In this document: positions 19,976 through 43,981 of the stretch, in pieces
Layout of the letters: every line of letters begins with the position of its first letter
Position numbering within the stretch: position 1 is the stretch's first letter
NCBI GenBank assembly: GCA_019752295.1
Contig: JAIEMK010000038.1
Coordinates: 1 to 64,000, forward strand
From: Chitinophagaceae bacterium
GTDB taxonomy: Bacteria > Bacteroidota > Bacteroidia > Chitinophagales > Chitinophagaceae
Direction of reading: 5' to 3'
DNA length: 64,000 nucleotides
Made by a program: the position numbers and the translations under genes
The notes under the pieces: model-generated
Seen by the model: the letters and a program-made list of their open reading frames with translations, nothing else
Databases searched by the model: none
What the model was told of the DNA's origin: nothing

Positions 19976-21118
19976 TTAGTTAAAATTCAATAGTAATAGG
20001 TCGGCCGCTTTTTCACCCATAATCGGAGATAAAGCTACCCCCATGCCATTACAGGCAATGGCAGCAAATACATTCTCCTCAATTTGTGATAACAAAGGTT
20101 TTTTGTTTTCTGTAAATGCCATGATACCACTCCAATGATTCTCGATGGTGTATTGGTAGGAGGGGTCAATATGTTCTTTCAGAAATTCAATCAATTTATT
20201 TTTTATAAGTTCTGTTCCGGAAATATCGGTAGTTCTTTCTGCTTCAAAATCTGCATTTCGGGCACCACCTAATAATATTCTGCCATCCAGGTTCCGCCAG
20301 TAATAAAAACCCTCATCAAAATGGAACGTGCCTGTTAGCTTCAGGTTTGGAATCTTTGATGTTACGATTACCTGCCCCCGGGCAGGTGTAATATTTAATT
20401 GAGGTAATAAAGTATCACAAAAAGCATTTGTACAAAACAAAAGCTGACTGGCTGTAAACCTAATTTGCTGCTCTGTGTAAATGTGTACACCATCTATACT
20501 TCTGTCCCAGGATTTAACTTCAATTCCGTTTAAAATGGTTACACCTGATGTTTGTACTTTTTGAATTAATGCACTTACTAGTTTCCCACTATGCAAACCC
20601 GATTCAAGTGTATTTTCAAACATGGCATCAAAACCATACAGGCCTTTTTGCAACATTGCTCCATCTTTCCTTACAAAAGTCTGATCCTTATTTGTAAGAT
20701 CTCTCATCTGCAAATTCAGTTCTGCAATCTTCTCATCGAGGCAATCCCAGTGTTTGTAATTTTTATTGATACACTCATAGCCCCCGCAATCATCCAATCC
20801 AATTTGGCTGGCGCCGAAAACTTTTTTTATTTTTTCCAGACCCATAAAACGCATTCTTATAATCTCCATGGTTTCTTCTAACCCCATTTTTTCAATATCG
20901 CCGATCAGTTCTGTGGGGCTTCCAAAGCATGAGAAACCTGCATTCCTTGTTGATGCGCCTAATGGAGTAATGTTTCTTTCCAATATCGTGATACGAATAG
21001 ATTGGTTTTTTCTTTTTAATTCCAGTGCAGTCCATAACCCCAAAAAGCCACTCCCAATAATGATAATATCCTGAGTAGAATAAAAACTTTCTTTTTCCCA
21101 AACTGATAAACTAGGCAT
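19976..21118 (-). CDS. FAD-dependent oxidoreductase (DAO family)
   Basis: The 380 residues have an N-terminal GxGxxG FAD site (IIIGSGFLGLWTALEL), the STRNAGFSCFG segment typical of the glycine/D-amino-acid oxidase superfamily, and a C-terminal GMGVALSPIMGEKAADLL. It probably oxidises an amine or amino acid; substrate unknown. I prefer ATG 21118 to the TTG at 21124 because a promoter box ends at 21122, so the TTG would lie in the promoter. Confidence 0.85.
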   Translation of the reverse strand: MPSLSVWEKESFYSTQDIIIIGSGFLGLWTALELKRKNQSIRITILERNITPLGASTRNAGFSCFGSPTELIGDIEKMGLEETMEIIRMRFMGLEKIKKVFGASQIGLDDCGGYECINKNYKHWDCLDEKIAELNLQMRDLTNKDQTFVRKDGAMLQKGLYGFDAMFENTLESGLHSGKLVSALIQKVQTSGVTILNGIEVKSWDRSIDGVHIYTEQQIRFTASQLLFCTNAFCDTLLPQLNITPARGQVIVTSKIPNLKLTGTFHFDEGFYYWRNLDGRILLGGARNADFEAERTTDISGTELIKNKLIEFLKEHIDPSYQYTIENHWSGIMAFTENKKPLLSQIEENVFAAIACNGMGVALSPIMGEKAADLLLLNFN

Positions 21119-21121
21119 GCT

Positions 21122-21129
21122 CAAATATA
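21122..21129 (-). promoter_or_regulatory. Bacteroidota -7 promoter box (TATATTTG)
   Basis: The box ends only three bases before ATG 21118 (minus strand), implying a leaderless or nearly leaderless transcript for the FAD oxidoreductase. It follows directly after the terminator at 21137-21173. Confidence 0.5.
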
Positions 21130-27888: not shown

Positions 27889-28251
27889 ATGAAAAGTGAA
27901 ATAGCTAAAACACACAAGTCGGATTTTGTAAACATTTTTCTTGAAATACGAATAGAGCTTAGCTTTAAAGCCAGGTTCCTTTTTTGCTATATCAATGAAT
28001 TGAATGAAGAAAAAATTATTGAACAGACAGGAATGTCATATTCAAGAGAGATTTTCTATCAGAGCAAGTCGATTGATTTTATCTGTATGCTTTTTGTGTA
28101 CAATAAACATTTTGTAGAAGATCAGGTGGCTGAAATAAGGTTGTTGCAGGACAACCAAATTATTGTAAATAAAATCTTTCATCTTTCAAATTCTCTCCCC
28201 TATGACGGCTGGTTTATTCTCGAAAAAAAAATATCTCCCCTCCGAAATTGA
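27889..28251 (+). CDS. Hypothetical protein upstream of bactofilin
   Basis: A 120-residue protein of no recognised family, with mixed helix/strand character and no signal peptide or membrane segment. It is preceded by 241 bases without a gene. Its last 50 bases overlap the longest bactofilin frame, or it ends 37 bases before the shorter bactofilin start. The tight arrangement suggests co-transcription. Confidence 0.55.
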   Translation: MKSEIAKTHKSDFVNIFLEIRIELSFKARFLFCYINELNEEKIIEQTGMSYSREIFYQSKSIDFICMLFVYNKHFVEDQVAEIRLLQDNQIIVNKIFHLSNSLPYDGWFILEKKISPLRN

Positions 28252-28735
28252 TGCAGTAAGGGAACTCAATACAGTAGATGTGATCAATATGACGCCTGTA
28301 ATTATACCTAAGCACTCTTTTATGGATGGTGTATTTTCTACAAAGAGATCTATACGAATAGAATGTGCATTTAAAGGAATATTATATTCTAAGGAGAAGG
28401 TAATAATCGACGATGACGCTTTAGCACAGGGTAATATTATTGCATCTGAAGTTGTTATCAGTGGTCGTGTTGTTGGAAATATATACTGTTTTGGAAAAGT
28501 ACATGTAAAGAATGGTGGTAAAATTGATGGGAATATTTTCAGCAACCGATTTCAGAACGATGAAGGATCGGATTTGAGTTCAAGCATCACTATTCTGAAT
28601 AATGATACCGTTAATAGTCTGGAAATAATCAATAATAATATTCTTCTTGAGTCAGATGCAATCGAAAATAATCAAATCGAAGAGTTAATCGCCATCTTCA
28701 ACCCGGTTTCTAATAAAATAAAAGCAGTAAAGTGA
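28202..28735 (+). CDS. Bactofilin-like polymer-forming cytoskeletal protein
   Basis: The 177 residues have a central right-handed beta-helix of bactofilin type with short hydrophobic turns: RSIRIECAFKGILYSKEKV, GNIIASEVVISGRVVGNIY and KVHVKNGGKIDGNIFS. Bactofilins polymerise on the inner membrane and position envelope machinery. The start is uncertain: ATG 28202 overlaps the previous gene by 50 bases, while ATG 28289 (MTPVIIPKHSF) begins right at the conserved core. The C-terminal 45 residues are non-conserved and Asn-rich. Confidence 0.78.
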   Translation: MTAGLFSKKKYLPSEIDAVRELNTVDVINMTPVIIPKHSFMDGVFSTKRSIRIECAFKGILYSKEKVIIDDDALAQGNIIASEVVISGRVVGNIYCFGKVHVKNGGKIDGNIFSNRFQNDEGSDLSSSITILNNDTVNSLEIINNNILLESDAIENNQIEELIAIFNPVSNKIKAVK

Positions 28736-28736
28736 G

Positions 28737-29270
28737 CTACTGAATAATATCGATCATTTCTTTTACGGCAGTGTCGAGCTGCCCGTCGTTATTAATTTTA
28801 ATCATTGCGTTTAGCTCGGTAAAATTAAAATTCCGAGCCATTCTTTTTTCTATTTCAGCATTGGTTTCGCGCCCTCTGCTTCTAAGTCTTTGTTGAATGA
28901 TTTCAGAACTTGATTCAATCAATATTACTTTCAATGAGGGGAATATTAGTTGGGCTTTTGGCAAATATTCTCTTGAGCCATTTATAACTACATTAAACCC
29001 CAATGAAAGCCATTCGTGCACTTCTGTACCAATGCCATAACTATACCCATGACTATTCCAAAAAAAGCAAAAAAAGCCGGCTTGTTTACGTTGCTCAAAT
29101 TCTTCCACACTTAGATGAATATGATTCTCTGCATCGTGATTAGGTAACCTTGTAATATAGCGATGTGCAAATACAATTCTCTGAGAACCGTTTATACATG
29201 CCCTTGCAGATTTCATAATAGAATCTTTCCCTACGCCGGAAGCGCCAATAACATAAAATAATGAAGCCAT
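28737..29270 (-). CDS. phnN: Ribose 1,5-bisphosphate phosphokinase PhnN
   Basis: The 177 residues form a guanylate-kinase-like fold with P-loop GASGVGKDS near the N-terminus, FAHRYITRLPNHDAENHI and SRGRETNAEIEKRM, all typical of PhnN. The enzyme phosphorylates ribose 1,5-bisphosphate to PRPP, the last step of C-P lyase product recycling. It is divergent from phnG. I chose ATG 29270 (MASLFYVIG); the frame to 29309 adds 13 residues upstream of the fold. Convergent with bactofilin, one base between stops. Confidence 0.92.
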   Translation of the reverse strand: MASLFYVIGASGVGKDSIMKSARACINGSQRIVFAHRYITRLPNHDAENHIHLSVEEFEQRKQAGFFCFFWNSHGYSYGIGTEVHEWLSLGFNVVINGSREYLPKAQLIFPSLKVILIESSSEIIQQRLRSRGRETNAEIEKRMARNFNFTELNAMIKINNDGQLDTAVKEMIDIIQ

Positions 29271-29415
29271 AAACTTAATTGCGGTTAGCAATCTAAATTC
29301 TTCTTTCAATGCAATAAGATTAATTATTTGTTAACCAGAGAATTAGGGTAATCAGCAGAAAGATTTAAAGATTGCATAGAATGTAAATCATTTTTTAATA
29401 TACAAAAATAATTTA
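29271..29415. promoter_or_regulatory. Divergent phnN/phnG intergenic region
   Basis: This 145-base AT-rich gap must hold both promoters of the phosphonate locus. I see no clear TAnnTTTG box and no Pho-box direct repeats. TAATTATTTGTTAACC at about 29320 is the closest promoter-like string. Confidence 0.4.
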
Positions 29416-29835
29416 ATGAACGAGATTGATTATGTTCTATGTGAATGCGCGTTAAGTGCCCTGCAAGAACTGGTTGAAATTCTTGAAAAAGAGTGCCAGA
29501 TAGAAATCGTTAAAACTCCAACAATCTGTATGACGATGATTGAAGCCGAAGATTCAGTTGAGCTACAACCATTTTATCTGGGAGAAGCCCTAACAACTGA
29601 ATCTGAATTGATTGTGGATGGAAAAATCGGATATGGTATTTGTCTTGGTGATGAACCTGTGCGCAGTTATTGTATTGCATTTGTTGACGCTTATTTGAAA
29701 AAGGAAGGAAGAAATACAATGGTGCTCTTAAACTTTATTCGGGAGCATAATAAGATCATTGAAGAAGAAAGGCAGGAAGAGCATGCATATATTATGCGTA
29801 CTAAAGTTGATTTTAAATTGATGGAACAGGAATAA
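29416..29835 (+). CDS. phnG: C-P lyase complex subunit PhnG
   Basis: The 139 residues contain the PhnG core FYLGEALTTESELIVDG followed by IGYGICLGDEP, and the C-terminal TKVDFKLM that matches the E. coli TRVDF-type end. PhnG is a structural subunit of the PhnGHIJ core that attaches phosphonate to the ribose C1 of ATP. It is richer in Cys (including a CxC at residues 9-11) than E. coli PhnG. First gene of the + operon; 9 bases to phnH. Confidence 0.93.
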   Translation: MNEIDYVLCECALSALQELVEILEKECQIEIVKTPTICMTMIEAEDSVELQPFYLGEALTTESELIVDGKIGYGICLGDEPVRSYCIAFVDAYLKKEGRNTMVLLNFIREHNKIIEEERQEEHAYIMRTKVDFKLMEQE

Positions 29836-29844
29836 AAGAAAAAT

Positions 29845-30447
29845 ATGCTGAACAGAGAATCGCATTACGACGAAGTTTTTGATGCCCAATTACATTTCAG
29901 AATCATTTTGGATGCAATGGCAAAGCCTGGTATTATTAAAACTATTGATGGGGTGAAGATCAATCCACCTCAGGGTATCCACCATGCCAGCTCATTAATT
30001 GGTTTTGCATTATTAAATGCAGACACTTGTTTTAGTAGTGTACAGTTGAATCAGAAAGAGATTGCTGAATATCTTTTATTGAACACAGGGGCTCCATTTG
30101 TTACTGAAGCCTCTGCGGATTTTATTTTTATGGATGGCATGCAACCTGCCGAACTGATTGCCTCAATAAAATTTGGGACACTTGAATATCCCGAAAACAG
30201 CGCCACCATAATAATTGATGTAGAAGAAATTTCCGACAGTATGAATGAGGGGTCTCTGTCACTGATTTTGTCTGGCCCTGGAATAGAAAATCAACATAGG
30301 GTATTTATAAAAGGAATGGGAGAACAAATTATTTCGTTTAGATCTGAAGTGAATGCCGAATACCCTTTGGGAATTGATATGATATTAACAGATCTCAACA
30401 ATAGAATGATTTGTATACCAAGGACAAGCAAAATTGTTCACGAGTAA
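29845..30447 (+). CDS. phnH: C-P lyase complex subunit PhnH
   Basis: The 200 residues are PhnH-like: FDAQLHFRIILDAMAKPGII at the N-terminus, ASSLIGFALLNADTCF, FGTLEYPENSATIII, and a C-terminal half with LSGPGIENQHRVFIKG. It is a PLP-fold-like homodimer without cofactor that bridges the core complex. Length matches E. coli PhnH (about 194). Confidence 0.93.
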   Translation: MLNRESHYDEVFDAQLHFRIILDAMAKPGIIKTIDGVKINPPQGIHHASSLIGFALLNADTCFSSVQLNQKEIAEYLLLNTGAPFVTEASADFIFMDGMQPAELIASIKFGTLEYPENSATIIIDVEEISDSMNEGSLSLILSGPGIENQHRVFIKGMGEQIISFRSEVNAEYPLGIDMILTDLNNRMICIPRTSKIVHE

Positions 30448-30482: not shown

Positions 30483-31604
30483 ATGGGATATGTTGCTGTT
30501 AAAGGTGGAGCAGATGCTATATACAATTCACGAGAATTGATCGAGTTTTATCGGCTAAAAGATGCATCCACACCACTTGAAATAAAAGAAATCAAATCGC
30601 AGTTAAGGCTTGCAATTGATAAGATTATCGGAGAGGGCGGATTGTACGCACCGGAATATGCTGCAATTGCTTTAAAACAAGCTGAAGGGGATCTGTTTGA
30701 GGCTGCATTCATTATCAGGGCTTTCAGAACAACCTTGCAAAGAAGGTTTTATTCAGAAAGAATCAATACTCGAGAAATGTTTGTTAAAAGAAAAATTTCT
30801 GCATCGTTCAGAGAAATCCCTGGTGGGCAAATTCTCGGGCCAACAAGAGATTATACACAAAGAATTCTCGATACGGCTAAAGCTTTTGAAACAATCGATG
30901 ATGTGAAATTGTTTATTGATAAATTCAAAAAACAGTCAAACAATAAACAATCTGAACCCATTCAGGAATATGAAAAGATCATTGACCAACTTAAAAAAGA
31001 GGGACTGCTAAAATCAGTTGATTTCAAGGAAGACAGAACAATTTTGGATATTACTAGAGAAGCGATCAAATTTCCTGCACCGCGTTCTGCGCGTTTACAA
31101 ATGATGGCTCGTTCCGAAACCGGCGGGCTTATGGCAATGGGCTACAGCAGTATGCGTGGTTTCGGAACGATACATCCTACAGTTGGAGAATTGAGATATG
31201 GCTCAATCCCCATACGCTTGAAAGACCCCTCCGGAAAAATTAGATATGTTGGAAAAATAGAAGTCACCGAAGCTGAAATGATTTCCGATGCACTGGAAGT
31301 AGAAAAAAAAGAATCTCCCAAATACATGGTCGGATATGGTTTATGTTTTGGTCAGAACGATACAAAGGCAATTTGTATGGGCATGCTAGATGTTTCAATG
31401 CGTAGTAAAGATCAAAGTCTGCCAGCCAACGATCAGGAATTTGTATTGTTCCATACAGAAGGCATCGAATCAATGGGCTTTACTAATCACCTGAAACTGC
31501 CCCACTATGTAACCTTTCAATCGAGCTTGAGCAATATGCGTGATGCTGTTGAAAGGAAGTCAGAAAAGAAAGAAATGCTAACCAAAGAATTGACAGAAGG
31601 ATAA
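30483..31604 (+). CDS. phnI: C-P lyase complex nucleosidase subunit PhnI
   Basis: The 373 residues begin GYVAVKGGADAI, the PhnI signature, and retain ARSETGGLMAMGYSSMRGFG. The C-terminal HTEGIESMGFTNHLKLPH holds two histidines (His336, His341) corresponding to the zinc ligands at the PhnI-PhnJ interface of E. coli (His328, His333). PhnI displaces adenine from ATP so that the phosphonate joins ribose C1. The sequence looks fully functional, in contrast to PhnJ. It lies 35 bases after phnH and 9 bases before phnJ. Confidence 0.95.
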   Translation: MGYVAVKGGADAIYNSRELIEFYRLKDASTPLEIKEIKSQLRLAIDKIIGEGGLYAPEYAAIALKQAEGDLFEAAFIIRAFRTTLQRRFYSERINTREMFVKRKISASFREIPGGQILGPTRDYTQRILDTAKAFETIDDVKLFIDKFKKQSNNKQSEPIQEYEKIIDQLKKEGLLKSVDFKEDRTILDITREAIKFPAPRSARLQMMARSETGGLMAMGYSSMRGFGTIHPTVGELRYGSIPIRLKDPSGKIRYVGKIEVTEAEMISDALEVEKKESPKYMVGYGLCFGQNDTKAICMGMLDVSMRSKDQSLPANDQEFVLFHTEGIESMGFTNHLKLPHYVTFQSSLSNMRDAVERKSEKKEMLTKELTEG

Positions 31605-31613
31605 TCGTTTTAT

Positions 31614-32510
31614 ATGATAGACAATAATAAATACATCAATAAATACAATTTTGCATTCATTGATGAAGCAACTAAAAAAGAAATTCGCAGAAAATTGCTT
31701 AAAGCAGTTGCTATCCCCGGCTATCAAGTGCCTTATTCATCACCGGAAATGCCCATTTCAAGAGGTTGGGGAACGGGAGGCTTGCACGTTACACTGGCCA
31801 TTATTGGAAAAGACGATGTTTTTAAAATTATTGATCAAGGAAGCGACGCGAGTGTGAATGCCTGCAACCTGAGAGACTTTGTGCATACAATGACAAATGT
31901 TCGAACCACTTTTGATACTGCAGAAGCAACCCTGATTCAGACAAGACATCGTATTACGGAAGAAGCATTATTGCCCCACCAGATTTACATTTATCAGGTA
32001 CCTCAACCAGAACCGCTAAGATCGGTTGAACGTTATGAAAATAAAACTCGACAAATGCATGCTGAAGGAGATTATGCAAAAATGTTTGTTTCCTTGTATG
32101 AGTCGATTGTATTGCATGGTGCAGTTATGCATGGAGCAGATTACCCTGTAATGGTGAATGATCGTTATATCATGGCACCTTCGCCAATACCAAAATGGGA
32201 TGTGCCAAATTTAAATCATTCTAAAGCATTGCATTTGTTCGGCGCGGGAAGAGAAAAACGCCTCTACGCAGTGCCTCCATTCACTAAAGTGGCCCCCCTG
32301 GAATTTATTGATGTAAAATTTGATATTGAAAATTTTAGTGGTAAAAAATGTTATAAAACAAGCAGCAATAAGGCTTTCCTTGATGAACTGATCTACGACG
32401 ACGGGTCAAAAAATTATGTAATAAACGATAGTAATTATCTCGACAAACTGATGGAAAATGAAACACCTCAGCAACATACTAATCCCTATATAAATAAGAT
32501 TGCGTTATGA
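31614..32510 (+). CDS. phnJ: PhnJ homologue lacking the radical-SAM cluster cysteines
   Basis: The 298 residues align with E. coli PhnJ from end to end: YNFAFIDEATKKEIRRKLLK, AIPGYQVPY (Gly36 = E. coli Gly32, the glycyl-radical site), RGWGTGG, ATLIQTRHRI (His112 = zinc ligand His108), SPIPKWD, FGAGREKRLYAVPPFT. E. coli PhnJ then has CX2CX21CX5C (Cys241, 244, 266, 272). Here only Cys246 remains; the others are Thr249, Ile270 and Leu276. The only other cysteine is Cys84. The flanking FLDEL...DDG...NYV...DSNY stays aligned, so this is substitution, not frameshift. A canonical [4Fe-4S] cluster and thiyl radical seem impossible. Stop overlaps the phnK start by 4 bases. E. coli sequence and numbering are from memory. 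Confidence 0.93.
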   Translation: MIDNNKYINKYNFAFIDEATKKEIRRKLLKAVAIPGYQVPYSSPEMPISRGWGTGGLHVTLAIIGKDDVFKIIDQGSDASVNACNLRDFVHTMTNVRTTFDTAEATLIQTRHRITEEALLPHQIYIYQVPQPEPLRSVERYENKTRQMHAEGDYAKMFVSLYESIVLHGAVMHGADYPVMVNDRYIMAPSPIPKWDVPNLNHSKALHLFGAGREKRLYAVPPFTKVAPLEFIDVKFDIENFSGKKCYKTSSNKAFLDELIYDDGSKNYVINDSNYLDKLMENETPQQHTNPYINKIAL

Positions 32511-33355
32511 TTAGAAACGATGATAACTGGCTTTTAAGGGTTCGTAATTTGACAAAAATTTACGGCGCTTATAACGAACAAACAGTAGCGAGAACGGGGC
32601 CAGAATTTAATTCGAATATTTGCCCTGATAATGGAAGTATTGTTGCTTGCGCCGATATCAATTTTGATTTGTATCCGGGTGAAGTATTGGGTATAGTTGG
32701 AGAAAGTGGTTCAGGTAAAAGTACAATCGTTAAACTGCTATACTTCGATCTAGAGAAGACAAACGGGGAAGCCTTTTTGAAACCTTATGAAAATGATACC
32801 CTAAATATTTTGGATGAATCAAATCAAAAGAAAAAATTTATCAGAAATAATTTAATGGGCATGGTTTATCAAAACCCAAGAGATGGATTGAATTTCAACT
32901 TTTCTTCGGGAGGAAACATTGGGGAGAAACTAATTATGTCGGGAAATATGCACGTTGGTAATATTCGCAACCGGGCTACTGAATTATTGAGTAAAACCGA
33001 AGTGCCGGTTCAACGTTTGGATGACCTGCCAGCTTTTTTTAGCGGCGGCATGCAGCAACGTGTACAGATTTCAAAAGCAATAGCCAATAACCCTCCATTA
33101 TTATTTCTTGATGAAGTGACAACCGGATTGGATGTTTCCGTTCAAGCGAAAGTACTTGACCTGATTAGAGAAATGCAACAAGAACTTGGAATTGCAATGA
33201 TCGTTGTGTCGCACGATTTATCTGTTATCAGGATGCTAACAGATCGCACAATGGTCATGAAGAATGGAAGAATTGTAGAGTCGGGACTCACTGATCAGAT
33301 TCTACAGGACCCACAGCACGAATATGCTCAATTACTGGTTAGTTCCTTATTGTAA
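32507..33355 (+). CDS. phnK: C-P lyase-associated ABC ATPase PhnK
   Basis: The 282 residues contain Walker A GESGSGKST (65-73), signature FSGGMQQRVQ (178-187), Walker B LLFLDE (198-203) and the PhnK-typical C-terminus GLTDQILQDPQHEYAQLLVS. It has about 20 extra residues (about 23-46) before the core beta strand compared with E. coli PhnK. PhnK binds the core complex beside PhnJ and is needed for C-P bond cleavage in vivo in E. coli; it is not a transporter. ATGA overlap with phnJ implies coupled translation. Confidence 0.93.
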   Translation: MIRNDDNWLLRVRNLTKIYGAYNEQTVARTGPEFNSNICPDNGSIVACADINFDLYPGEVLGIVGESGSGKSTIVKLLYFDLEKTNGEAFLKPYENDTLNILDESNQKKKFIRNNLMGMVYQNPRDGLNFNFSSGGNIGEKLIMSGNMHVGNIRNRATELLSKTEVPVQRLDDLPAFFSGGMQQRVQISKAIANNPPLLFLDEVTTGLDVSVQAKVLDLIREMQQELGIAMIVVSHDLSVIRMLTDRTMVMKNGRIVESGLTDQILQDPQHEYAQLLVSSLL

Positions 33356-33375: not shown

Positions 33376-34101
33376 ATGAAAATTTTAGAAGTTTCGGGCC
33401 TTAGTAAAACATTCAACTTGCATATCCTTCATAATAAAAAAATTGAAGCGTTAAAGAATATTGATTTTTCAATGGAGGAAGGAGAGATCATTGGCTTAAC
33501 CGGAAAATCGGGATCGGGTAAATCAAGTTTAATGAAATGTATTTACCGTACTTATCTGGCATCTACTGGCACAATACTGTATCATTCCGATAAAGGTAAA
33601 AAAGATCTGGTACAAGCTTCTGATCATGAGATGATCGAACTTAGAAAAACTGAAATTACTTATTGCTCCCAATTTTTAAGTGTTATACCCAGAGTCACCG
33701 CGATTGATGTGGTTTGTGAAAACTTGTTCAGGGTTGAAAAGAATAAAGAAATAGCAAGAGCAAAGGCGAGAGAAATTCTTGCTTATCTGGGATTGGCGGA
33801 AGAATTATGGGATGCTTTTCCAGCAACGTTTAGCGGAGGCGAACAACAACGTATTAACCTTGCGCGAGCTGTATTGGGTAACCCCAAATTTTTATTAATT
33901 GATGAACCTACTGCTTCGCTGGATGCTAAAACAAAAGAAGCGGTTATTCGATTGATATTGAATTTAAAAAAACAGGGATCATCTGTGATTTGTATTTCTC
34001 ACGACGATTATACGATCGATCAACTCGTTGATAGGAATATCGAAATGCAGAACGGAACGATCGTATCTATTCAATCAAATCCAAAAAAAGAAAACAGCTA
34101 G
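33376..34101 (+). CDS. phnL: C-P lyase-associated ABC ATPase PhnL
   Basis: The 241 residues carry Walker A GKSGSGKSS (43-51), ITYCSQFLSVIPRVTA as in PhnL, signature FSGGEQQRINLARAV and Walker B LLIDEP. With PhnG, H and I it is required in E. coli to form 5-triphosphoribosyl phosphonate, and it also docks on PhnK. It starts 20 bases after phnK. Confidence 0.94.
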   Translation: MKILEVSGLSKTFNLHILHNKKIEALKNIDFSMEEGEIIGLTGKSGSGKSSLMKCIYRTYLASTGTILYHSDKGKKDLVQASDHEMIELRKTEITYCSQFLSVIPRVTAIDVVCENLFRVEKNKEIARAKAREILAYLGLAEELWDAFPATFSGGEQQRINLARAVLGNPKFLLIDEPTASLDAKTKEAVIRLILNLKKQGSSVICISHDDYTIDQLVDRNIEMQNGTIVSIQSNPKKENS

Positions 34102-34102
34102 T

Positions 34103-35311
34103 ATGCATTCCATGACAATCACCAATGCCCTCATCATTACGCCTGAAGAAGTGCTGAAAAACGCTTCTCTATTAATTAAAGATGGTAAAATAGCAGCAAT
34201 TAATCAGAAAATTCAGGAGCCGTCAGAAATTGTAATTGATGCAAAGGGATCTGTGCTAATGCCCGGTATCATTGATATTCATACGGATGCACTTGATGCA
34301 GAAATTATTCCAAGACCCGGTGCGGATATCCCGATCATGGTAGCTTTTAAGGAATTGGAAAGAAAGATGAGCGGATGTGGTATCACAACGGTATACCATT
34401 CTTTACACCTGGGTTACGATAAAGCTGAATTTACTTCAAGAAGCAGGTATTCCAGAGAGGAAGTTTTTGAAACAGTTAATAAAGCCATCAACGGAAAAAC
34501 AATCCTACACAATAAAATTCACCTGAGATATGAGCTAACTGGTGTATATGCATACGAAACCTGTTTTGATTTGATTAAAAAAGGATATGTTGGATTACTT
34601 TCTGTGATGGATCATACACCTGGACAGGGCCAGTACACCAAAGAACTCTACGTAGATATGATGATGAAGACCGGCAAGAGTTTGGAACAATCACTTGCTG
34701 ATTATGAGAACATGATAAAGCTTCCTAAAATTGAAGGGGAAAACTTAGAGCGGTTGGTACGCTTCGCCTTGTCAAAAGGTATTCCAGTAGCATCGCATGA
34801 TGATGACACGATCGAGAAAGTAAATACCATGCATCAGATGGGTATTAATATTTGCGAATTTCCTATTAACCTCGAAACGGCTCATCATGCTACAAAACTT
34901 GGAATGCATGTGGTAGGTGGCGCGTCAAATATTCTGAGAGGCGGGTCTTTATCTGGAAACCTAAATATCAAAGACGCAGTTTTGGAAGGAGCAGTAAATG
35001 CACTTTGTTCTGATTATTATCCTGCGGCTTTGTTGCATTCTGTATTTAAACTAAATGAAGAGCACGGTTTAGATTTTTGTAACGCAATCAATCTTGCAAC
35101 TATTCAGGCTGCAAGAGCTGCAAACATTGATCAGCTTACCGGAAGTATTGAAGTTGGAAAATTCGCGGATTTAATTATTATCGACAGAGATGGATCCGTG
35201 CCAATGGTTAACTATACCATTGTAAACGGTGAACTCGTAGTAAGCGCAAGAAATAAGAATAGTAGTCAGGTAAAACAGGAGCAAGCTTCTTCCTCAATCA
35301 ACGAAAACTGA
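34103..35311 (+). CDS. phnM: Triphosphoribosyl-phosphonate diphosphohydrolase PhnM
   Basis: The 402-residue amidohydrolase TIM barrel has metal motif IIDIHTDALDAEI, PRPGADIPI, GCGITTVYHSLHLG, SHDDDT (metal-binding) and CSDYYPAALL near the C-terminus. It removes pyrophosphate from the triphosphoribosyl phosphonate. I chose ATG 34103, one base after the phnL stop; the frame from 34028 lies inside phnL. A 20-residue Ser/Gln-rich tail is extra. Confidence 0.94.
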   Translation: MHSMTITNALIITPEEVLKNASLLIKDGKIAAINQKIQEPSEIVIDAKGSVLMPGIIDIHTDALDAEIIPRPGADIPIMVAFKELERKMSGCGITTVYHSLHLGYDKAEFTSRSRYSREEVFETVNKAINGKTILHNKIHLRYELTGVYAYETCFDLIKKGYVGLLSVMDHTPGQGQYTKELYVDMMMKTGKSLEQSLADYENMIKLPKIEGENLERLVRFALSKGIPVASHDDDTIEKVNTMHQMGINICEFPINLETAHHATKLGMHVVGGASNILRGGSLSGNLNIKDAVLEGAVNALCSDYYPAALLHSVFKLNEEHGLDFCNAINLATIQAARAANIDQLTGSIEVGKFADLIIIDRDGSVPMVNYTIVNGELVVSARNKNSSQVKQEQASSSINEN

Positions 35312-35315
35312 ACCC

Positions 35316-36122
35316 ATGAATTCAAAAATGGAAATGCATTCGCCCGACTATCCCTTTGATGTTTATGAGAAACACCAGTGGTTTGAAATCAACCCCCTTC
35401 GGATCATAGAAAAATCTGAACAAACTAAAAGAGGAAATAAATTTTTATACAACCCAGTATCGAGTGCATGGGAATCTATTGAATATAAGGGCTATGCTAT
35501 TGTATCGATGCTGAACGAAAATGAGGGAAACGAACTGGCTATCAGAACCATATATAATCTGCAATCAAAATTGCTTGAGTCGCTGGATAATGAACTTTTT
35601 TTTTACCCGCTTCCGGAAGAAAGTTTTCATCAAACCATTGCCAATACACATTCTTCAGATCGATTTGAGCGATACATTGCCCAGACAGGGAAAGAAACCC
35701 AATATCCGAAAATGGTTGCCGAGGTATTCAAAAATGCAACTGAAATAAGCACTGAACCATTGAAAATGAATTTGATTGGTTTGAGTGTTTTCGATACCAG
35801 TATTGGAATTTTGGGGGTGTTTGCGAATGAATACGATTACAATAGAATTCTGCATTTTAGAAACCTGTTTTATGAACACGACCTCATGAAACAGATGGAA
35901 ATTAAAATGACAAGACCTTTTATTGGTCATATTACACTAGGTTATATCGAAAACAGATTGAACCATCTGGAAGCAAAACTATTGGCAAACTGTGTTAATG
36001 AAATCAATGAAACGCTTACCAACAAGGCCTTAGATGTAAATATAGGATTCACTGGTTTAAGAAAATATGAACACCTGGCTGTATTTAACCGGGAACCAAA
36101 TTTTCCTCAATACCATCTTTAA
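35316..36122 (+). CDS. 2H-phosphoesterase superfamily protein (DUF1868-like), phnP substitute candidate
   Basis: The 268 residues hold two HxT motifs, HQT (105-107) and HITLGY (205-210), about 100 residues apart: the catalytic pair of 2H phosphoesterases, which open 2',3'- or 1,2-cyclic phosphates. The C-terminus has FTGLRKYEHLAVF. In E. coli the cyclic ribose phosphate made by C-P lyase is opened by PhnP, a metallo-beta-lactamase; no phnP is in this locus, so this gene is a natural replacement candidate (inference). It begins 4 bases after phnM. Confidence 0.75.
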   Translation: MNSKMEMHSPDYPFDVYEKHQWFEINPLRIIEKSEQTKRGNKFLYNPVSSAWESIEYKGYAIVSMLNENEGNELAIRTIYNLQSKLLESLDNELFFYPLPEESFHQTIANTHSSDRFERYIAQTGKETQYPKMVAEVFKNATEISTEPLKMNLIGLSVFDTSIGILGVFANEYDYNRILHFRNLFYEHDLMKQMEIKMTRPFIGHITLGYIENRLNHLEAKLLANCVNEINETLTNKALDVNIGFTGLRKYEHLAVFNREPNFPQYHL

Positions 36123-36131
36123 TCTGATTGC

Positions 36132-36779
36132 ATGCAATATTTCGAAAATTTTTCGGTGGGTAAACATAGTGAAGAAAAGATTTTGAGTGAAGCATCATTT
36201 ATTCATGAAACCTGTATTATCAGAGAGAGTTCTGTGGGAGATTGGGTATCGCTTGACAGGAATACCTGTTTAATTGAATCCAGTATCGACGACTATAGTT
36301 ATGCCGATGGCGATGTACAAATCATTTACTCAGAAATCGGAAAATACTGTTCCATTGCAAATAGTGTTAGAATTAATCCGGGAAATCATCCTAAATGGAG
36401 GGTTACACAACACCATATGACTTACCGCAGAAAACAGTATCAACTAGACAGCGAGGATGATCTTGATTTTTTTAAATGGCGAAGGGATCAGAAATGTATA
36501 ATTGGTCATGATGTTTGGATCGGACATGCAGCAGTAATTATGCCAGGGGTTCGTATTGGTACGGGAGCTGTAATTGGTTCAGGAGCTGTAGTAACAAAAG
36601 AGATAGGTCCGTATGAAATTGCAGTGGGAGTACCTGCAAGAGTTATAAAAAAACGTTTCGATGATAACACAATTGCAAAATTGCTGAAATCTGAATGGTG
36701 GAACTGGGATAGGGCTACTCTCGAGAACAATTTTAAAGACCTTTTTGATTTGGATCTTTTTTTAAAAGTACACTGTTAA
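36132..36779 (+). CDS. Phosphonate-locus hexapeptide-repeat acyltransferase
   Basis: The 215 residues form a left-handed beta-helix acyltransferase of the xenobiotic/chloramphenicol type: an N-terminal helix turn series, [18 protein letters not shown] (candidate catalytic His), then [20 protein letters not shown] and [20 protein letters not shown]. It fits the phosphonate-associated group TIGR03308. It may acetylate aminophosphonates, like PhnO in E. coli; untested. 9 bases after the 2H gene. Confidence 0.85.
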
Positions 36780-36787
36780 TTCGTTTT

Positions 36788-37705
36788 ATGAAAATAAGAA
36801 TCATTATTGCTTTCTGTATCATTTCAATTGCATTACTCTCTTGTAAAGGCAAACCTAAAAATAATGGTATGCCCGAAAAATTGATTATTGCATTATTTGG
36901 AGGTGATAACCCGGGCCAGTTGAAATCTAAAGTGGAGCCATTTAGAAAATATCTTTCTGCAAAACTGCATACCGAGGTAGAATTCCTTTTTACCTCCGAC
37001 TATGCTGCAGTTATTCAAGCTATAAGATCAAAAAAAGTGCATATGGCAGAATTAACTCCATTTGCGTACGTTATTGCTACACAGAAACCCGGCCTGAAAC
37101 CCTTAGTGATTCTAGGTATGAATGGCAGCCCCAGCTTATATCACAGCGTAATCATTGCCGATCCTAAAAAAGGAATTAAAACAATTGAGGATCTCAAAAA
37201 ACACGCAAAGGAATTAACGCTCAGCTTTGGAGACCCCGCATCAACTTCCGGTCATTTGATTCCCAGAAACTATTTGATCTCAATTGGCTTGGATCCGGGC
37301 AACAAAGCATTTAAAGAAATGATGTTCTCTGGTAATCATACAGCAACTATTATGAACGTAGCTTCGGGAAAAGTAGACATTGGTTGCTCGAATCTGGATT
37401 TGTCGATGGAACTTTTATTGCGCCAGGGAATCATTAAAAAAGAAGCCGTTGTAGTTTTATGGATCTCTGCACCAATTATCAATAATGCAATCGTAATCAG
37501 AGATGATATCAGTAATACGGTAAGTGAACAAATAAAAAACATTTATCTCAATCTTGCAAAGGATGCACCGGATGTATTTCAAAGTATGAATAGTACTTAT
37601 TATCCCAATGCAAAAGAGATGAGTTATGTACCCGCGCAGGATTCTAGTTACGATTCACTCCGAAAAATCGCTGGGTCTATTAAGGACTTAAATTTTACAA
37701 AGTAA
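36788..37705 (+). CDS. phnD: Phosphonate ABC transporter substrate-binding lipoprotein PhnD
   Basis: The 305 residues include a lipobox (LLSC, Cys19) and the PhnD/SsuA-like fold: ALFGGDNPGQLKSKVEPFRK, MAELTPFAYV, SFGDPASTSGHLIPRNYL (phosphonate-binding loop) and GKVDIGCSNLDL. It is anchored in the inner membrane outer leaflet and delivers phosphonate to PhnCEE. 8 bases after the acyltransferase. Confidence 0.94.
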   Translation: MKIRIIIAFCIISIALLSCKGKPKNNGMPEKLIIALFGGDNPGQLKSKVEPFRKYLSAKLHTEVEFLFTSDYAAVIQAIRSKKVHMAELTPFAYVIATQKPGLKPLVILGMNGSPSLYHSVIIADPKKGIKTIEDLKKHAKELTLSFGDPASTSGHLIPRNYLISIGLDPGNKAFKEMMFSGNHTATIMNVASGKVDIGCSNLDLSMELLLRQGIIKKEAVVVLWISAPIINNAIVIRDDISNTVSEQIKNIYLNLAKDAPDVFQSMNSTYYPNAKEMSYVPAQDSSYDSLRKIAGSIKDLNFTK

Positions 37706-37712
37706 ATATTGC

Positions 37713-38516
37713 ATGATACAGGTAAAAAATTTAAGTAAGACTTTAAAGAACGGTCACAAGGTTTTGGATGGAATCAGTTTTACTGTTAACAAGGGAGAGT
37801 TTGTTGGTATTCTCGGACCCAGCGGTGCAGGTAAAACACTAACCATAAGATGCCTCAATGGCTTGTTAAAGCCCGATTCCGGTGAAGTGATTATTGATAT
37901 AGGCAATAAGCAATATGATATCTGTAAAGTGTCTAAAAAAGAATTAAGACAAATCAGACAAAAAATTGGATTGATATTTCAGGGATATCATCTGGTAAAA
38001 AGGTCTAGCGTTTTAGAAAATGTACTCATCGGAAAACTGGGGCAAATTAGTACGCTCAGAAGTATTTTTTTTGGTTTCAATGATGCGGAAGCTGCAGAAG
38101 CAATAAAAGCTTTGGAAAGAGTTAATATGCAATCCAAAGCGGGCAGACTGGTTGCAGGACTTAGTGGTGGAGAAATGCAAAGAGTTGCAATAGCGCGCGC
38201 TTTGTTTCAGTCGCCCGGTTTTTTGATTGCAGATGAACCCATTTCGAATCTTGACCCCAGCAATTCGCATATTATCATGAAAATGATTAAACCATTGTCG
38301 GAAAATATTCCTGTGATTGGTGTATTTCATCAGCCTGAACTAACTGCAAAATATTGCACAAGGGTTATTGCCATCAAAGAAGGAAAACTAATCTATGATG
38401 GTGATCCTAAACTTACCAATCAACAATTAGTAGAGATTTATGGTGAGGAATTAAATCAATTACAGGAAGAATTAATTGTGTCGAACGAAATCAGTAATCA
38501 TGCGCCTGTTGAATAG
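37713..38516 (+). CDS. phnC: Phosphonate ABC transporter ATPase PhnC
   Basis: The 267 residues contain Walker A GPSGAGKTLT, Q-loop GLIFQGYHLVKRSSVLENVL (typical PhnC), signature LSGGEMQRVAIARAL and Walker B LIADEPISNLDP. It energises import. 7 bases after phnD. Confidence 0.95.
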   Translation: MIQVKNLSKTLKNGHKVLDGISFTVNKGEFVGILGPSGAGKTLTIRCLNGLLKPDSGEVIIDIGNKQYDICKVSKKELRQIRQKIGLIFQGYHLVKRSSVLENVLIGKLGQISTLRSIFFGFNDAEAAEAIKALERVNMQSKAGRLVAGLSGGEMQRVAIARALFQSPGFLIADEPISNLDPSNSHIIMKMIKPLSENIPVIGVFHQPELTAKYCTRVIAIKEGKLIYDGDPKLTNQQLVEIYGEELNQLQEELIVSNEISNHAPVE

Positions 38517-39288
38517 TCAAATCAAAAAAAGATTGATGCAGTTTGCCGGACTAATCGTTCTGGCAAGCATTACCTATGCCTCGGCCATTTCGTGTGGATT
38601 TAACCTACACTCATTAAGTGAAGGACTCATCAAAGGAGGGCTCTTCTTTATTAATTTTTTTCCCCCCGATTGGTCGGTCTTTGGAGAAATGCTGCTTGCG
38701 GCCATTGAATCGATTGTTATTGCATTTGTAGGCACCGTGATCGGCCTGCTTTTTTCGATCATTATCGCATTTCTTGCAGCAGCAAATATTACCAACAAAT
38801 GGGTGAGAAATGCTGCCAGATTAATTATTGGAGTAGAACGATCTATACCGGAAATATTACTATTGCTGATTTTGGTATCTGCCTATGGGCTGGGCGCTTT
38901 ATCTGGCGTGTTTGCTTTAGCATTGGGTTGTATAGGAATGCTTGGCAAATTGTTAGCCGACAGTATTGAAGAAATTGATTCAGCTACCCTCGAAGCTATC
39001 CAATGTGTAGGCGCAAATAAAATTCAGGTAATTTGGTTCGGAATAATACCTCAATTAAAAAATAGAATCATTAGCTATACACTTTTTCGGTTTGAATGGA
39101 ATATCAGGCTCTCTGTAATTTTAGGAGCTATCGGCGCAGGTGGTATTGGGTATGAGTTGGACTTCGCTTTTAATATGTTGCAGTATCAACGTGCAGGATC
39201 CGCTTTTGTAGTAATTGTGATAATGGTGCTGGCTATAGAACAAACTTCAGAATTTATCCGACATCAATTTAATATTCAAACGGTTTGA
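38500..39288 (+). CDS. phnE: Phosphonate ABC transporter permease PhnE (first)
   Basis: The 262-residue permease has about six transmembrane helices and a BPD_transp_1 EAA loop (LEAIQCVGANKIQVIWFGIIPQ) before GAIGAGGIGYELD. ATG 38500 overlaps phnC by 17 bases; the frame extended to 38476 lies deeper in phnC. It pairs with the second permease. Confidence 0.92.
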   Translation: MRLLNSQIKKRLMQFAGLIVLASITYASAISCGFNLHSLSEGLIKGGLFFINFFPPDWSVFGEMLLAAIESIVIAFVGTVIGLLFSIIIAFLAAANITNKWVRNAARLIIGVERSIPEILLLLILVSAYGLGALSGVFALALGCIGMLGKLLADSIEEIDSATLEAIQCVGANKIQVIWFGIIPQLKNRIISYTLFRFEWNIRLSVILGAIGAGGIGYELDFAFNMLQYQRAGSAFVVIVIMVLAIEQTSEFIRHQFNIQTV

Positions 39289-40097
39289 AAAAAGAAATTC
39301 AATTGCAGACTCAGGCAACAATCTTTAAAAAGAAAATAGTAGTTTCTATACTTTTCTTATTGATCGTAATATTTGCTTGCATCTATATCAAGTTGAATCC
39401 AATATTGTTTTTTACAGAGTTCCATTTTTTGTCGGATTTATTAAACGAAATGATGCCCCCAAATTATCAGGTCATCTGGAACGATTCGAATACTTTTAAT
39501 GCGATTGGACAAACCCTTTCGATGGCATTTTTAGGAACCCTGATTGGAGGCCTTGTATCTTTAGTTCTTAGTTTTTTTGCAGCTTCCACTACCATGCATT
39601 TGCTTCTGGTACGGTGGCTGATTACGACAATGATATCACTGATCAGATCTATACCGAGTATTGTTTTTATTTTGATCTTTATAATTGCAGTAGGTATTGG
39701 CCCCTTTGCGGGTGTATTAACCCTAATATTTATTACGATTGGCACTTTTGGTAAATTGTTTACAGAAATGCTGGAACACACTGACAGAGCTTCTTCTGAA
39801 GGATTAAATTCTGTTGGTGCAAGTAAAATACAAGTCATCAGATACGCCATCCTGCCCGAAATTCAACCGGCTGTTATATCCAATTTTTTATACGCATTTG
39901 ATATTAATCTCCGAACAGCAATTGGGTTGGGAATTTTTGGTGGAGGTGGTTTGGGTTATCAGTTATATATGGCTATCAGGGTGCTACACTATAAAGATGT
40001 ACTGGCTCTGATCATAATAATTATATGTTTGGTAATTTCTATTGAGAAAATTTCAGATGGATTGAGAAACTTTATATTTAAGGAAGGAAAATTGTAA
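39285..40097 (+). CDS. phnE: Phosphonate ABC transporter permease PhnE (second)
   Basis: The 270 residues have five to six transmembrane helices and an EAA loop SEGLNSVGASKIQVIRYAIL, then GIFGGGGLGYQLYMAI. It starts within the first permease stop (4-base overlap). The two permeases are only moderately alike and probably form a heterodimer. Confidence 0.92.
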   Translation: MKKEIQLQTQATIFKKKIVVSILFLLIVIFACIYIKLNPILFFTEFHFLSDLLNEMMPPNYQVIWNDSNTFNAIGQTLSMAFLGTLIGGLVSLVLSFFAASTTMHLLLVRWLITTMISLIRSIPSIVFILIFIIAVGIGPFAGVLTLIFITIGTFGKLFTEMLEHTDRASSEGLNSVGASKIQVIRYAILPEIQPAVISNFLYAFDINLRTAIGLGIFGGGGLGYQLYMAIRVLHYKDVLALIIIIICLVISIEKISDGLRNFIFKEGKL

Positions 40098-40112: not shown

Positions 40113-41462
40113 ATGAAAGATGCTAAATTGTTAACAGAAGGAGATATCAATCAGTCTGCATCCAGATCAGAATGGTATAAAACGATCGGTTCTACAGAAG
40201 CAATCAATTGGTTGGAAAGAGATGCTGACAGTTTTTTGCACCAGGCTCTTTCAACACCTTGCTTACAACTCATTGAATCTTGCGAAGGAATTTATATTAT
40301 TGATGCTAATGGTAAAAAGTATATGGACTTTCATGGGAACAATGTTCACCAGATTGGTTACCGTAATCCGGAAGTGATCGAAAAAGTAAAACAGCAATTA
40401 GATATACTCCCGTTTTCACCACGCCGTTATACCAATAAACCTGCGATTGAGTTAGCAGAAAAATTGAGCAGTTTATTGCCTAATGGGTTTAACAGGGTTT
40501 TATTTGCTCCGGGTGGTACAAGCGTTATCGGGATTGCTTTGAAGTTGGCAAGAGTGGTTACCGGAAAGCACAAAATTATTTCTCTCCGCGATTCTTTTCA
40601 TGGTGCTTCAATGGATGCTATTGCTGCAGGAGGGGAGGAACAATTTAAACAAGGACTTGGACCTCTAATGCCCGGTGTAACATATATAGATCCACCTCTT
40701 AGTTATCGAAATAAATATGCTTCAACAGGTAATGATATTGAGTATGCCAATCAATTAGAAACGGAGATAAAAAATAATGAAGGAGAAATCGGTGCATTTA
40801 TTATTGAAACCATTCGAAATACGGATGTGCAAATTCCTTCAAAAGCTTACTGGAAAAGGATTAGAGAGATTTGCAATGAATATCAAGTATTGTTGATTTT
40901 GGATGAAATACCCATAGCTTTTGGCAGAACCGGAAAAATGTTTGCTTTTGAACACTATGGTATTGAGCCCGATATTATTTGTTTGGGAAAAGGATTAGGT
41001 GCTGGTATCATTCCAATTGCAGCCATGGTTGCGAGAGATGCTTATAACATAGCAACCGATATTTCTCTTGGCCATTATACACACGAAAAAAGCCCTCTTG
41101 GTGCAGTAGCAGCTCTTGGAATGTTATCGTTCATTGAATCAACCGATTTACTCCGTAAAGTGCAGGAGGACGAAATATTTGTAAGAGAACAATTATATTT
41201 CTTACAACAGAAACACGAGATCATTGCTGATATCAGAGGAATTGGACTAATGTGGGGGATTGAACTCGTAAAAAATAAAGACACTAAGGAAAAAGCAATA
41301 GAGGAAGCAGAAAAAGTAATGTATTACTGTTTGAAGAATGGATTAAGTTTTAAAGTTTCGCAGGGCAATGTATTGCAACTTTGTCCCCCGCTGGTGATTA
41401 CAAGAGATCAGTTAATGGATGCATTTAGGATTATTGATGAAGCTATTGCTGCTTTAAATTAA
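40113..41462 (+). CDS. Class III aminotransferase-fold PLP enzyme of the phosphonate operon
   Basis: The 449 residues have a class III aminotransferase fold: PLP lysine in CLGKGLGAG (Lys293), Asp in LILDEIPIAFGRTG (Asp264), and FHGASMDAIAAGG. Two motifs deviate from ordinary transaminases: the usual GTEA-type phosphate loop reads FAPGGTSVIGIALKLAR, and the usual DEVQ is DEIP. This family includes transaminases and PLP lyases such as the (R)-1-hydroxy-2-aminoethylphosphonate ammonia-lyase PbfA. It probably acts on an aminophosphonate before or beside the complex; exact reaction unknown. It is the last gene of the operon, 15 bases after phnE2. Confidence 0.8.
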   Translation: MKDAKLLTEGDINQSASRSEWYKTIGSTEAINWLERDADSFLHQALSTPCLQLIESCEGIYIIDANGKKYMDFHGNNVHQIGYRNPEVIEKVKQQLDILPFSPRRYTNKPAIELAEKLSSLLPNGFNRVLFAPGGTSVIGIALKLARVVTGKHKIISLRDSFHGASMDAIAAGGEEQFKQGLGPLMPGVTYIDPPLSYRNKYASTGNDIEYANQLETEIKNNEGEIGAFIIETIRNTDVQIPSKAYWKRIREICNEYQVLLILDEIPIAFGRTGKMFAFEHYGIEPDIICLGKGLGAGIIPIAAMVARDAYNIATDISLGHYTHEKSPLGAVAALGMLSFIESTDLLRKVQEDEIFVREQLYFLQQKHEIIADIRGIGLMWGIELVKNKDTKEKAIEEAEKVMYYCLKNGLSFKVSQGNVLQLCPPLVITRDQLMDAFRIIDEAIAALN

Positions 41463-43960: not shown

Positions 43961-43981
43961 ATGCTAATTGTGATTGCGGAA

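Follow-up and report, generated by a model that had tools for sequence, protein, structure and literature searches.

Our analyses have identified a natural form of PhnJ, referred to below as cluster-less, which is a member of the PhnJ family encoded in a C-P lyase operon and which lacks the defining feature, as tested here, of the radical-SAM enzyme. C-P lyase is a main bacterial route from phosphonates to phosphate, and it releases methane in oxygenated water. The cluster-less form was recognized in the window, viz. the whole stretch of 64,000 nucleotides analysed here from a Chitinophagaceae bacterium (contig JAIEMK010000038.1), and, judging from its residues, the PhnJ encoded there cannot carry the published iron-sulfur cluster or the thiyl radical of Cys272. 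On the evidence of its genes the complex to which it belongs is very probably functional, and we see an even chance that it is a working C-P lyase whose PhnJ gave up the radical-SAM module and which would act by heterolytic formation of a cyclic phosphate. A literature search on the cysteines, cluster and structure of PhnJ, in a collection with most subscription papers outside its coverage, returned no report of a natural cluster-less PhnJ. A 2025 Methylotenera paper found the four cysteines and Gly32 present on checking its models of PhnJ (PMC11978286), and a survey describes a filter against sequences without the residues taken to be essential (PMC9381506).

The PhnJ of the window and its operon

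The phnJ gene of the window (31614..32510, + strand) encodes a protein of 298 aa without an internal stop, the intact frame described in the initial annotation, and its product is a clear member of the PhnJ family. The Pfam model PF06007 matches residues 10-280 with 419 bits against a cut-off of 25, and residues 8-279 align by phmmer with E. coli PhnJ (7z15_D, E 2.8e-87). In this alignment Cys246, Thr249, Ile270, and Leu276 of the window stand at the positions of Cys241, Cys244, Cys266, and Cys272 of E. coli. The CX2CX21CX5C ligands and the thiyl Cys272 of the published radical-SAM mechanism are represented by one of four cysteines, with a spacing of C-x2-T-x20-I-x5-L in which the middle loop is one residue shorter than in E. 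coli. The stretch that holds all four cysteines in canonical PhnJ (codons 246-276, 32349..32441, + strand, placed from the reading frame) has the first cysteine alone left, and Cys84 is the only other cysteine in the translation. Translation and phmmer confirm the loss as initially annotated, residue by residue (Thr249, Ile270, Leu276; two cysteines in total), and the alignment bears out the accompanying statement that Gly36 (the equivalent of the glycyl radical site Gly32), His112 (the equivalent of His108), and PhnI His336/His341 are kept.

The loss is not a fault of the record. A sequencing artefact at 32349-32430, raised in the initial annotation, is excluded by the same residues in two genomes of another genus (G065 and G145, described below), and the same loss in these genomes, together with intact frames, rules out a pseudogene as well. 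A second intact phnJ, also raised there, was looked for in the window's genome (98.5% complete) and none was found, the genome holding a single phnJ match. An AlphaFold2 model of the window's PhnJ built from 29 rows (mean pLDDT 78; residues 231-290 at 84-93 in blocks of ten) superimposes on E. coli PhnJ 7z17_H over 268 residues, the C-terminal domain included (Z 32.9, rmsd 2.1); in the structure comparison PhnJ and PhnH entries alone stand out, the remainder (Z about 4) being uninformative. The PhnJ fold is predicted to survive without the cluster, by a predictor that knows PhnJ and is perhaps biased.

Upstream of the operon and divergent from it lies phnN for ribose 1,5-bisphosphokinase (28737..29309, - strand; TIGR02322 193 bits, cut-off 156), which is directly adjoined by a bactofilin gene (28202-28735). 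The operon itself, all on the + strand, begins with phnG (29416..29835; TIGR03293 91.9 bits, cut-off 89; PF06754), phnH (29845..30447; TIGR03292 149 bits; PF05845), and phnI (30483..31604; PF05861 428 bits), in whose product His336 and His341 occupy the zinc-site positions. These align with the conserved His330/His335 of an E. coli ORF read 2 residues longer than annotated, which we take to be the published zinc ligands 328 and 333. Past phnJ are genes for a phnK-like ABC ATPase (32507..33355; TIGR02323 as best match, 240 bits, under the cut-off of 303), a phnL-like ABC ATPase (33376..34101; TIGR02324 as best match, 253.5 bits, just under the cut-off of 256.3), and the triphosphate diphosphatase PhnM (34112..35311; NF011990 396 bits, cut-off 233). 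The set phnG, H, I, J, K, L, and M of a C-P lyase system is present, with K and L under their curated cut-offs, as is its zinc site (the PhnI histidines and the His108 equivalent of PhnJ).

The next gene encodes a LigT/2H-like phosphoesterase (35316..36122, + strand; PF02834 22.7 bits, just under the cut-off of 23.3) with two H-x-T motifs visible by eye in the translation; in the ORF clustering of loci its family is common to the window and the two loci L004 and L005 only. The encoded protein is a candidate to stand in for PhnP in opening the cyclic phosphate. It is followed on the same strand by a hexapeptide-repeat acetyltransferase of a phosphonate family (36132..36779; TIGR03308 250 bits, cut-off 202) and by transport genes, viz. 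a phnD-type binding protein (36788..37705; TIGR03431 198 bits, below the cut-off of 261; TIGR01098 194 bits, over cut-off), phnC (37713..38516; TIGR02315 263.5 bits, just under the cut-off of 266.1), a first phnE permease (38476..39288; assigned by position, translation, and clustering with phnE), whose listed TTG start lies inside phnC and for which a later ATG may be the real start, and a second phnE permease (39285..40097; TIGR01097 237 bits, cut-off 217). The nearest solved relative of the phnD-type protein is the phosphite-binding PtxB (110 bits, vs 79 bits for PhnD of the alkylphosphonate transporter), a proximity which may serve as a lead on substrate size and is not proof. Starting 16 nt past the second phnE is pbfA (40113..41462, + strand; NF049939 691 bits, cut-off 525).

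Compared with the C-P lyase of E. coli (PhnGHIJ with PhnK, PDB 7z15-7z19 and 4xb6), the window's PhnJ is 50% identical, and the zinc-site histidines, the ligand residues, the equivalents of Gly32 and Cys241, and the companions G, H, I, K, L, M, and N are shared. The window differs in lacking Cys244, Cys266, and Cys272 and in having the 2H-like phosphoesterase and pbfA, and phnP, phnF, and phnO were not seen around its operon. The description of the operon as otherwise complete is accurate for phnGHIJKLM, phnN, and phnDCEE and does not extend to phnP, for which the neighbourhood was searched. Elsewhere in the window, the opposite strand just past pbfA (41534-46333) encodes a TonB-dependent receptor and a beta-propeller protein that carries a phosphoesterase domain, possibly for phosphate scavenging, and a DAO-type FAD oxidoreductase weakly similar to aminophosphonate oxidoreductase models is found about 8 kb from phnN (19976-21124).

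Distribution and origins of the cluster-less form

C-P lyase is rare in the window's group. PhnJ is present in 3/294 genomes of the family sample and 2/396 of the order sample, and in the class (395 genomes) and phylum (395) samples it is found in the window's own genome only, these four samples overlapping. The other two phnJ-bearing genomes of the family (G065 and G145, with loci L004 and L005) both belong to one other genus, in which 2/2 genomes carry it; each has a full operon with the same cysteine loss (CYKT...V[VI]NDSNFL at matching places) and a PhnJ that is 72 or 76% identical to that of the window. The operons of these relatives have a response-regulator gene before phnG (L004:5093-5803, L005:5512-6222) and a second phnM after phnE (L004:16746-17939), and adjoining phnN is a large gene whose product, as checked in L005, contains a TonB-receptor plug domain (L005:1407-4748).

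A GTDB scan with one genome per species gave 582 PhnJ, of which the best 80, those nearest the query, were kept; 10/80 of these are cluster-less loci. Adding the window, its pair of relatives, and records from plasmids and phages gave 94 rows to classify; all four cysteines are present in 78 of these and the first alone in 16, and four further plasmid rows brought the set to 98 (80 canonical, 18 cluster-less). By record title the cluster-less hosts include a Bacteroidota bin (L017), Acidobacteriota (L018), Chloroflexota (L024 and L031), Thermus plasmids (L014, L100), Bacillota (L027, L092), and Alphaproteobacteria (L012, L015, L057, L063, L085, L097), several of them being metagenome bins in which a contig may be misassigned; L061 carries no assignment. 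The nearest canonical PhnJ listed, from Nitrospirota, Thermodesulfobacteriota, and Bacillota (L019-L023, L008, L048; ~54-61% identity to the window), follow the same operon logic but have all four cysteines.

No relatives on viral contigs were found in two scans of such contigs. A Pseudomonas phage Y12 record marked UNVERIFIED (L010, OQ572413.1) carries a canonical Pseudomonas-like phn operon, and host contamination seems likely there. Three plasmid PhnJ (L006, L007, and L009, from Proteus, Labrenzia, and Martelella) are 39-45% identical to the window's and have four cysteines and Gln at the His108 position; L006 and L009 combine phnGHIJ with two ABC genes, have another type of ABC transporter upstream, and show no annotated phnM in the stretch shown.

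Wider sampling extended these counts to two further groups. In the Solibacillus family PhnJ is present in 38/151 genomes, 18/38 without Cys244 and Cys272 and 20/38 with all four cysteines. In the class of the Anaerolineaceae bin PhnJ is present in 4/199 genomes and is cluster-less in 4/4, and the cluster-less form may be the rule in this class (L171, L172, L173). After re-fetched or identical copies were removed from 155 rows, 144 unique PhnJ remained: 106 with all four cysteines, 16 with Cys241 and Cys266 only, 22 with Cys241 only, and none with three, counts which are not population frequencies as the sample leans to the window's relatives and the Solibacillus family. Cys244 and Cys272 are missing from 38/144 rows, and 22 of these also lack Cys266. 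The two-cysteine form (Cys241 and Cys266, with Thr244 and Met/Leu272) comprises 16 unique rows, all from the Solibacillus family (L141-L180), and these overturned the all-or-none loss that the first 94 rows (78/94 with four, 16/94 with one) had presented. The three losses come together, which argues that they are not chance substitution.

Phylogenetic trees were constructed from PhnJ residues 5-233 only, the cysteine region being left out to keep the motif from influencing the topology. Duplicates, most rows resembling E. coli, and three plasmid rows on long branches are absent from the 111-row tree; a 64-row tree of PhnJ and PhnI likewise omits these three, as well as 30 E. coli-like rows and any row that has no PhnI. 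The best tree requires 3 changes with 98 rows and 4 with 111 rows, and the starred branches force at least 2. A single clade of all 18 cluster-less rows is rejected (p-AU 0.0005; with PhnI added 4.8e-14), which rules out one origin for all cluster-less PhnJ. Group A (the window, L004, L005, L017, and L018) has support of 100/100, and group B (Thermus, Chloroflexota, Alphaproteobacteria, and L061) of 99/95 in the 98-row tree. Group C (L024, L027, and L092) is not rejected as one clade (p-AU 0.44), yet it is split in the best trees. The union of groups A and C is rejected (p-AU 0.00014, PhnJ and PhnI), and groups A and B may share an origin (support 78/88 and 75/90). On these trees there were two independent losses at the least, and probably three or four. 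We read the change as loss rather than gain because canonical PhnJ stands around each group, the trees being unrooted. Within group C, Thr266 of the Solibacillus family occurs in 2 rows nested among 16 rows that keep Cys266 (111-row tree), which suggests that this family shows a path of stepwise loss. The initial annotation had put forward a possible Bacteroidota clade; the loss proves to be wider than that, reaching several phyla, and not of single origin.

Constraint on cluster-less PhnJ and the context of its genes

The residues kept in cluster-less PhnJ include those of the ligand-binding site and one cysteine. The published structure has the cyclic-phosphate ligand at the zinc and His108 (PMC9947105), and its contacts within PhnJ are Arg107, His108, Gln124, and the loop 47-50. 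Gly32, residues 47-50, Arg107, His108, and Gln124 are kept in 38/38 unique cluster-less rows, Gly32 is present in 144/144 unique PhnJ rows, and both zinc-site histidines of PhnI are kept in 18/18 cluster-less loci. Position 241 is Cys and position 244 is Ser or Thr in 38/38 of these rows, and position 272 is hydrophobic or small, with Arg once. Only 3/43 columns of the C-terminal domain are invariant in the 38 cluster-less rows (Glu235, Cys241, and Asp268), and with Cys241 among them, this residue appears to be maintained by some constraint other than the cluster. That Cys241 is the cysteine always retained is a point that the initial annotation missed.

Across seven subunits (PhnG to PhnM), those columns that are conserved at ≥90% in canonical loci and mostly changed in cluster-less ones consist of the three cysteines, which differ between the groups by definition, and four mild changes, two in PhnJ and two in PhnI, in subunit alignments covering 80-98 of 98 loci. 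No replacement Cys or His common to all cluster-less groups was found across the subunits compared, the new histidines being confined mainly to group B or common to B and C.

Cluster-less relatives are under strong purifying selection. The dN/dS of PhnJ is 0.015-0.171 in 8 cluster-less pairs and 0.051 and 0.087 in 2 canonical pairs, and over the final 58 codons the range is 0.021-0.279 in cluster-less vs 0.108 and 0.191 in canonical pairs; several dS values exceed 1 and dS is saturated for three group A pairs, including the window's own, so that selection is seen on relatives only. The earlier claim that selection still acts on the region is upheld for these relatives.

No PhnJ besides the cluster-less one was found in 10/13 genomes, that of Solibacillus palustris included, where ten of the 13 genomes were reached via their loci and may be incomplete; in 3/13 (Paracoccus, Rhizobium, and Pseudorhodobacter) canonical copies stand beside it. 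Cluster-less loci of the Solibacillus family (L027, L179, and L180, with phnG not called in L180) have the gene order F-G-H-I-J-K-M-L-PHP-D-C-E-E, an order shared with the canonical operons of Planococcus and Planomicrobium (L048, L073). The 1,2-cyclic phosphate is a known substrate of the PHP enzymes that such operons encode. That the PHP gene and the gene order stay the same in Bacillota argues for an unchanged product. Counting against this reading, ring-opening genes (2H-like, DUF1045 or PHP) are present in 6/18 cluster-less vs 54/80 canonical loci and phnN in 4/18 vs 32/80, counts partly lowered by contig-end cuts and by genes missed in ORF clustering. PhnC, D or E transport genes occur at 13/18 cluster-less loci. 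The non-operon families found in at least 3 cluster-less loci are sugar-type ABC permeases (three group B loci each), and no radical-SAM activase gene was recognised among the gene families recurring around the 18 cluster-less loci. In L102 (5940-9753) and L063 (Rhizobium) sugar-type ABC permeases precede the cluster-less phn operon, accompanied in L102 by an SBP_bac_8 binding protein and a PfkB-family kinase, an unusual arrangement which perhaps suggests a sugar-like substrate.

Possible modes of bond cleavage and their significance

The initial annotation offered either non-radical C-P cleavage or a different ribosyl transfer. Because genes for handling the normal product stay in some operons (phnN, 2H-like, PHP), the gene content leans to the first, while those genes are rarer in cluster-less loci than in canonical ones. 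On present sequences cleavage independent of the PhnJ cluster is somewhat favoured, and the particular mechanism given here, in which the ribose 2'-OH acts at the zinc site, is put forward with its substrate class as a tentative proposal that may well be wrong.

In this mechanism PhnI, with G, H, and L, would couple the phosphorus compound to ribose 5-triphosphate at C1, and the product would be trimmed by PhnM. The ribose 2'-OH would attack phosphorus in the PhnI/PhnJ cleft, aided by the zinc ion and His112, and the substituent would be expelled by an RNase-like transesterification that yields 5-phosphoribosyl 1,2-cyclic phosphate, which the 2H-like phosphoesterase and PhnN would convert to PRPP. 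Such a heterolytic step would require no cluster, SAM or thiyl. We favour this mechanism because 2'-OH cleavage at the zinc site is the least demanding reading. Two points count against it. An unactivated C-P bond such as that of methylphosphonate is difficult to break heterolytically, and Gly32, which a non-radical enzyme would not need as a radical site, is present in every PhnJ row. The suited substrates would be those with a good leaving group, viz. esters of phosphate, or phosphonates in which the leaving carbon adjoins a carbonyl, phosphonoacetaldehyde being an example.

Some neighbouring genes bear on the substrate. The PbfA route to PhnW-PhnX passes through phosphonoacetaldehyde. PbfA is over its curated cut-off in 3/13 cluster-less genomes, all of the window's family, adjoining the operon in the window only and lying elsewhere in the genome in G065 and G145, and in the other 10/13 none is over cut-off; its link to the cluster-less complex is weak. 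PMC8154272 describes PbfA as feeding (R)-1-hydroxy-2-aminoethylphosphonate into the route of PhnW and PhnX. Phosphonatase is over cut-off in 2/13 cluster-less genomes (the hosts of L031 and L063), each time within ~4 kb of the cluster-less phnJ, and phnX with a DAO-type FAD oxidoreductase adjoins cluster-less operons in Anaerolineae (L031:13244-15211, TIGR03364) and Rhizobium (L183:12183-14134). The pbfA and phnX leads suggest, without settling the matter, phosphonates whose leaving group is stabilised by a carbonyl. The argument that the complex must take phosphonoacetaldehyde for want of a phosphonatase is weakened by a PhnX-like HAD in the window's genome (G000), 0.1 bit under the model cut-off, which could consume this compound.

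The glycine and cysteine that remain could instead serve a split radical chemistry in the manner of pyruvate formate-lyase, a separate activase making the radical on Gly36 and Cys246 replacing Cys272. We presume a likeness to glycyl radical enzymes with an activase in the conserved glycine and single cysteine of the window's PhnJ, and the retention of Gly32 and Cys241 in 38/38 cluster-less rows, the latter as one of so few invariant residues of its domain, agrees with it. The two residues are, however, equally invariant in canonical rows, so their retention is not specific, and, unlike in those enzymes, no activase gene was recognised beside the loci, nor any radical-SAM gene among their recurring neighbours; we consider split radical chemistry improbable.

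Equally low in our estimate is the view that in every C-P lyase the four cysteines form a separable metal site with a structural or regulatory role, cleavage taking place at the PhnI/PhnJ zinc site. The loss would then resemble the decay of zinc ribbons. It is stepwise, with a stable intermediate (the 16 Solibacillus-family rows) and a constant gene order in the loci read, and the cysteines are replaced by Ser/Thr or by residues that are for the most part hydrophobic or small. The cluster site is about 30 Å from the radical glycine, a gap that PMC9947105 and PMC7916636 note as unresolved; in PMC7916636, a review, the Gly32-Cys272 distance is held to be too long compared with ~4 Å in pyruvate formate-lyase. 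Against a separable site, published work cited in these two papers attributes to E. coli PhnJ a SAM-dependent catalysis by Gly/Cys radicals, and with four cysteines in 106/144 rows and three in 0, the site behaves as a unit under selection.

Loss of C-P cleavage with a partial function left behind, for instance ribosyl transfer or the salvage of nucleotides during phosphate stress, is in our view quite improbable. It would fit the absence of the catalytic Cys272, the canonical copies that three alphaproteobacterial genomes keep as well, and the reduced frequency of ring-opening genes and phnN, but no canonical copy was found in 10/13 genomes, transport genes accompany 13/18 loci, and the Bacillota gene order is unchanged in the loci read. 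Sequencing error, pseudogene or drift has next to no probability, as nothing beyond the unusual residues speaks for it and the same or close residues in 2 genomes of another genus, intact frames, and dN/dS well below 1 in relatives speak against it.

That natural C-P lyases cleave C-P bonds at the PhnI/PhnJ zinc site without a PhnJ cluster or Cys272, Cys241 and Asp268 having some role independent of the cluster, is doubtful. If this zinc-site reading is true, the accepted radical-SAM mechanism would be incomplete, or required for some substrates only. Either the bacteria with cluster-less complexes cleave the bond by a different route, or the mechanism now accepted falls short. The bond-breaking mechanism of C-P lyase is unsettled, and a natural series free of the cluster bears on this open question; the repeated loss of the cysteines in nature provides ready-made mutants, so that the question is testable in cultured strains such as Solibacillus. 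Surveys that filter on essential residues, like that of PMC9381506, may have hidden cluster-less PhnJ, and surveys that use phnJ as a marker of methane release would count cluster-less genes as ordinary ones.
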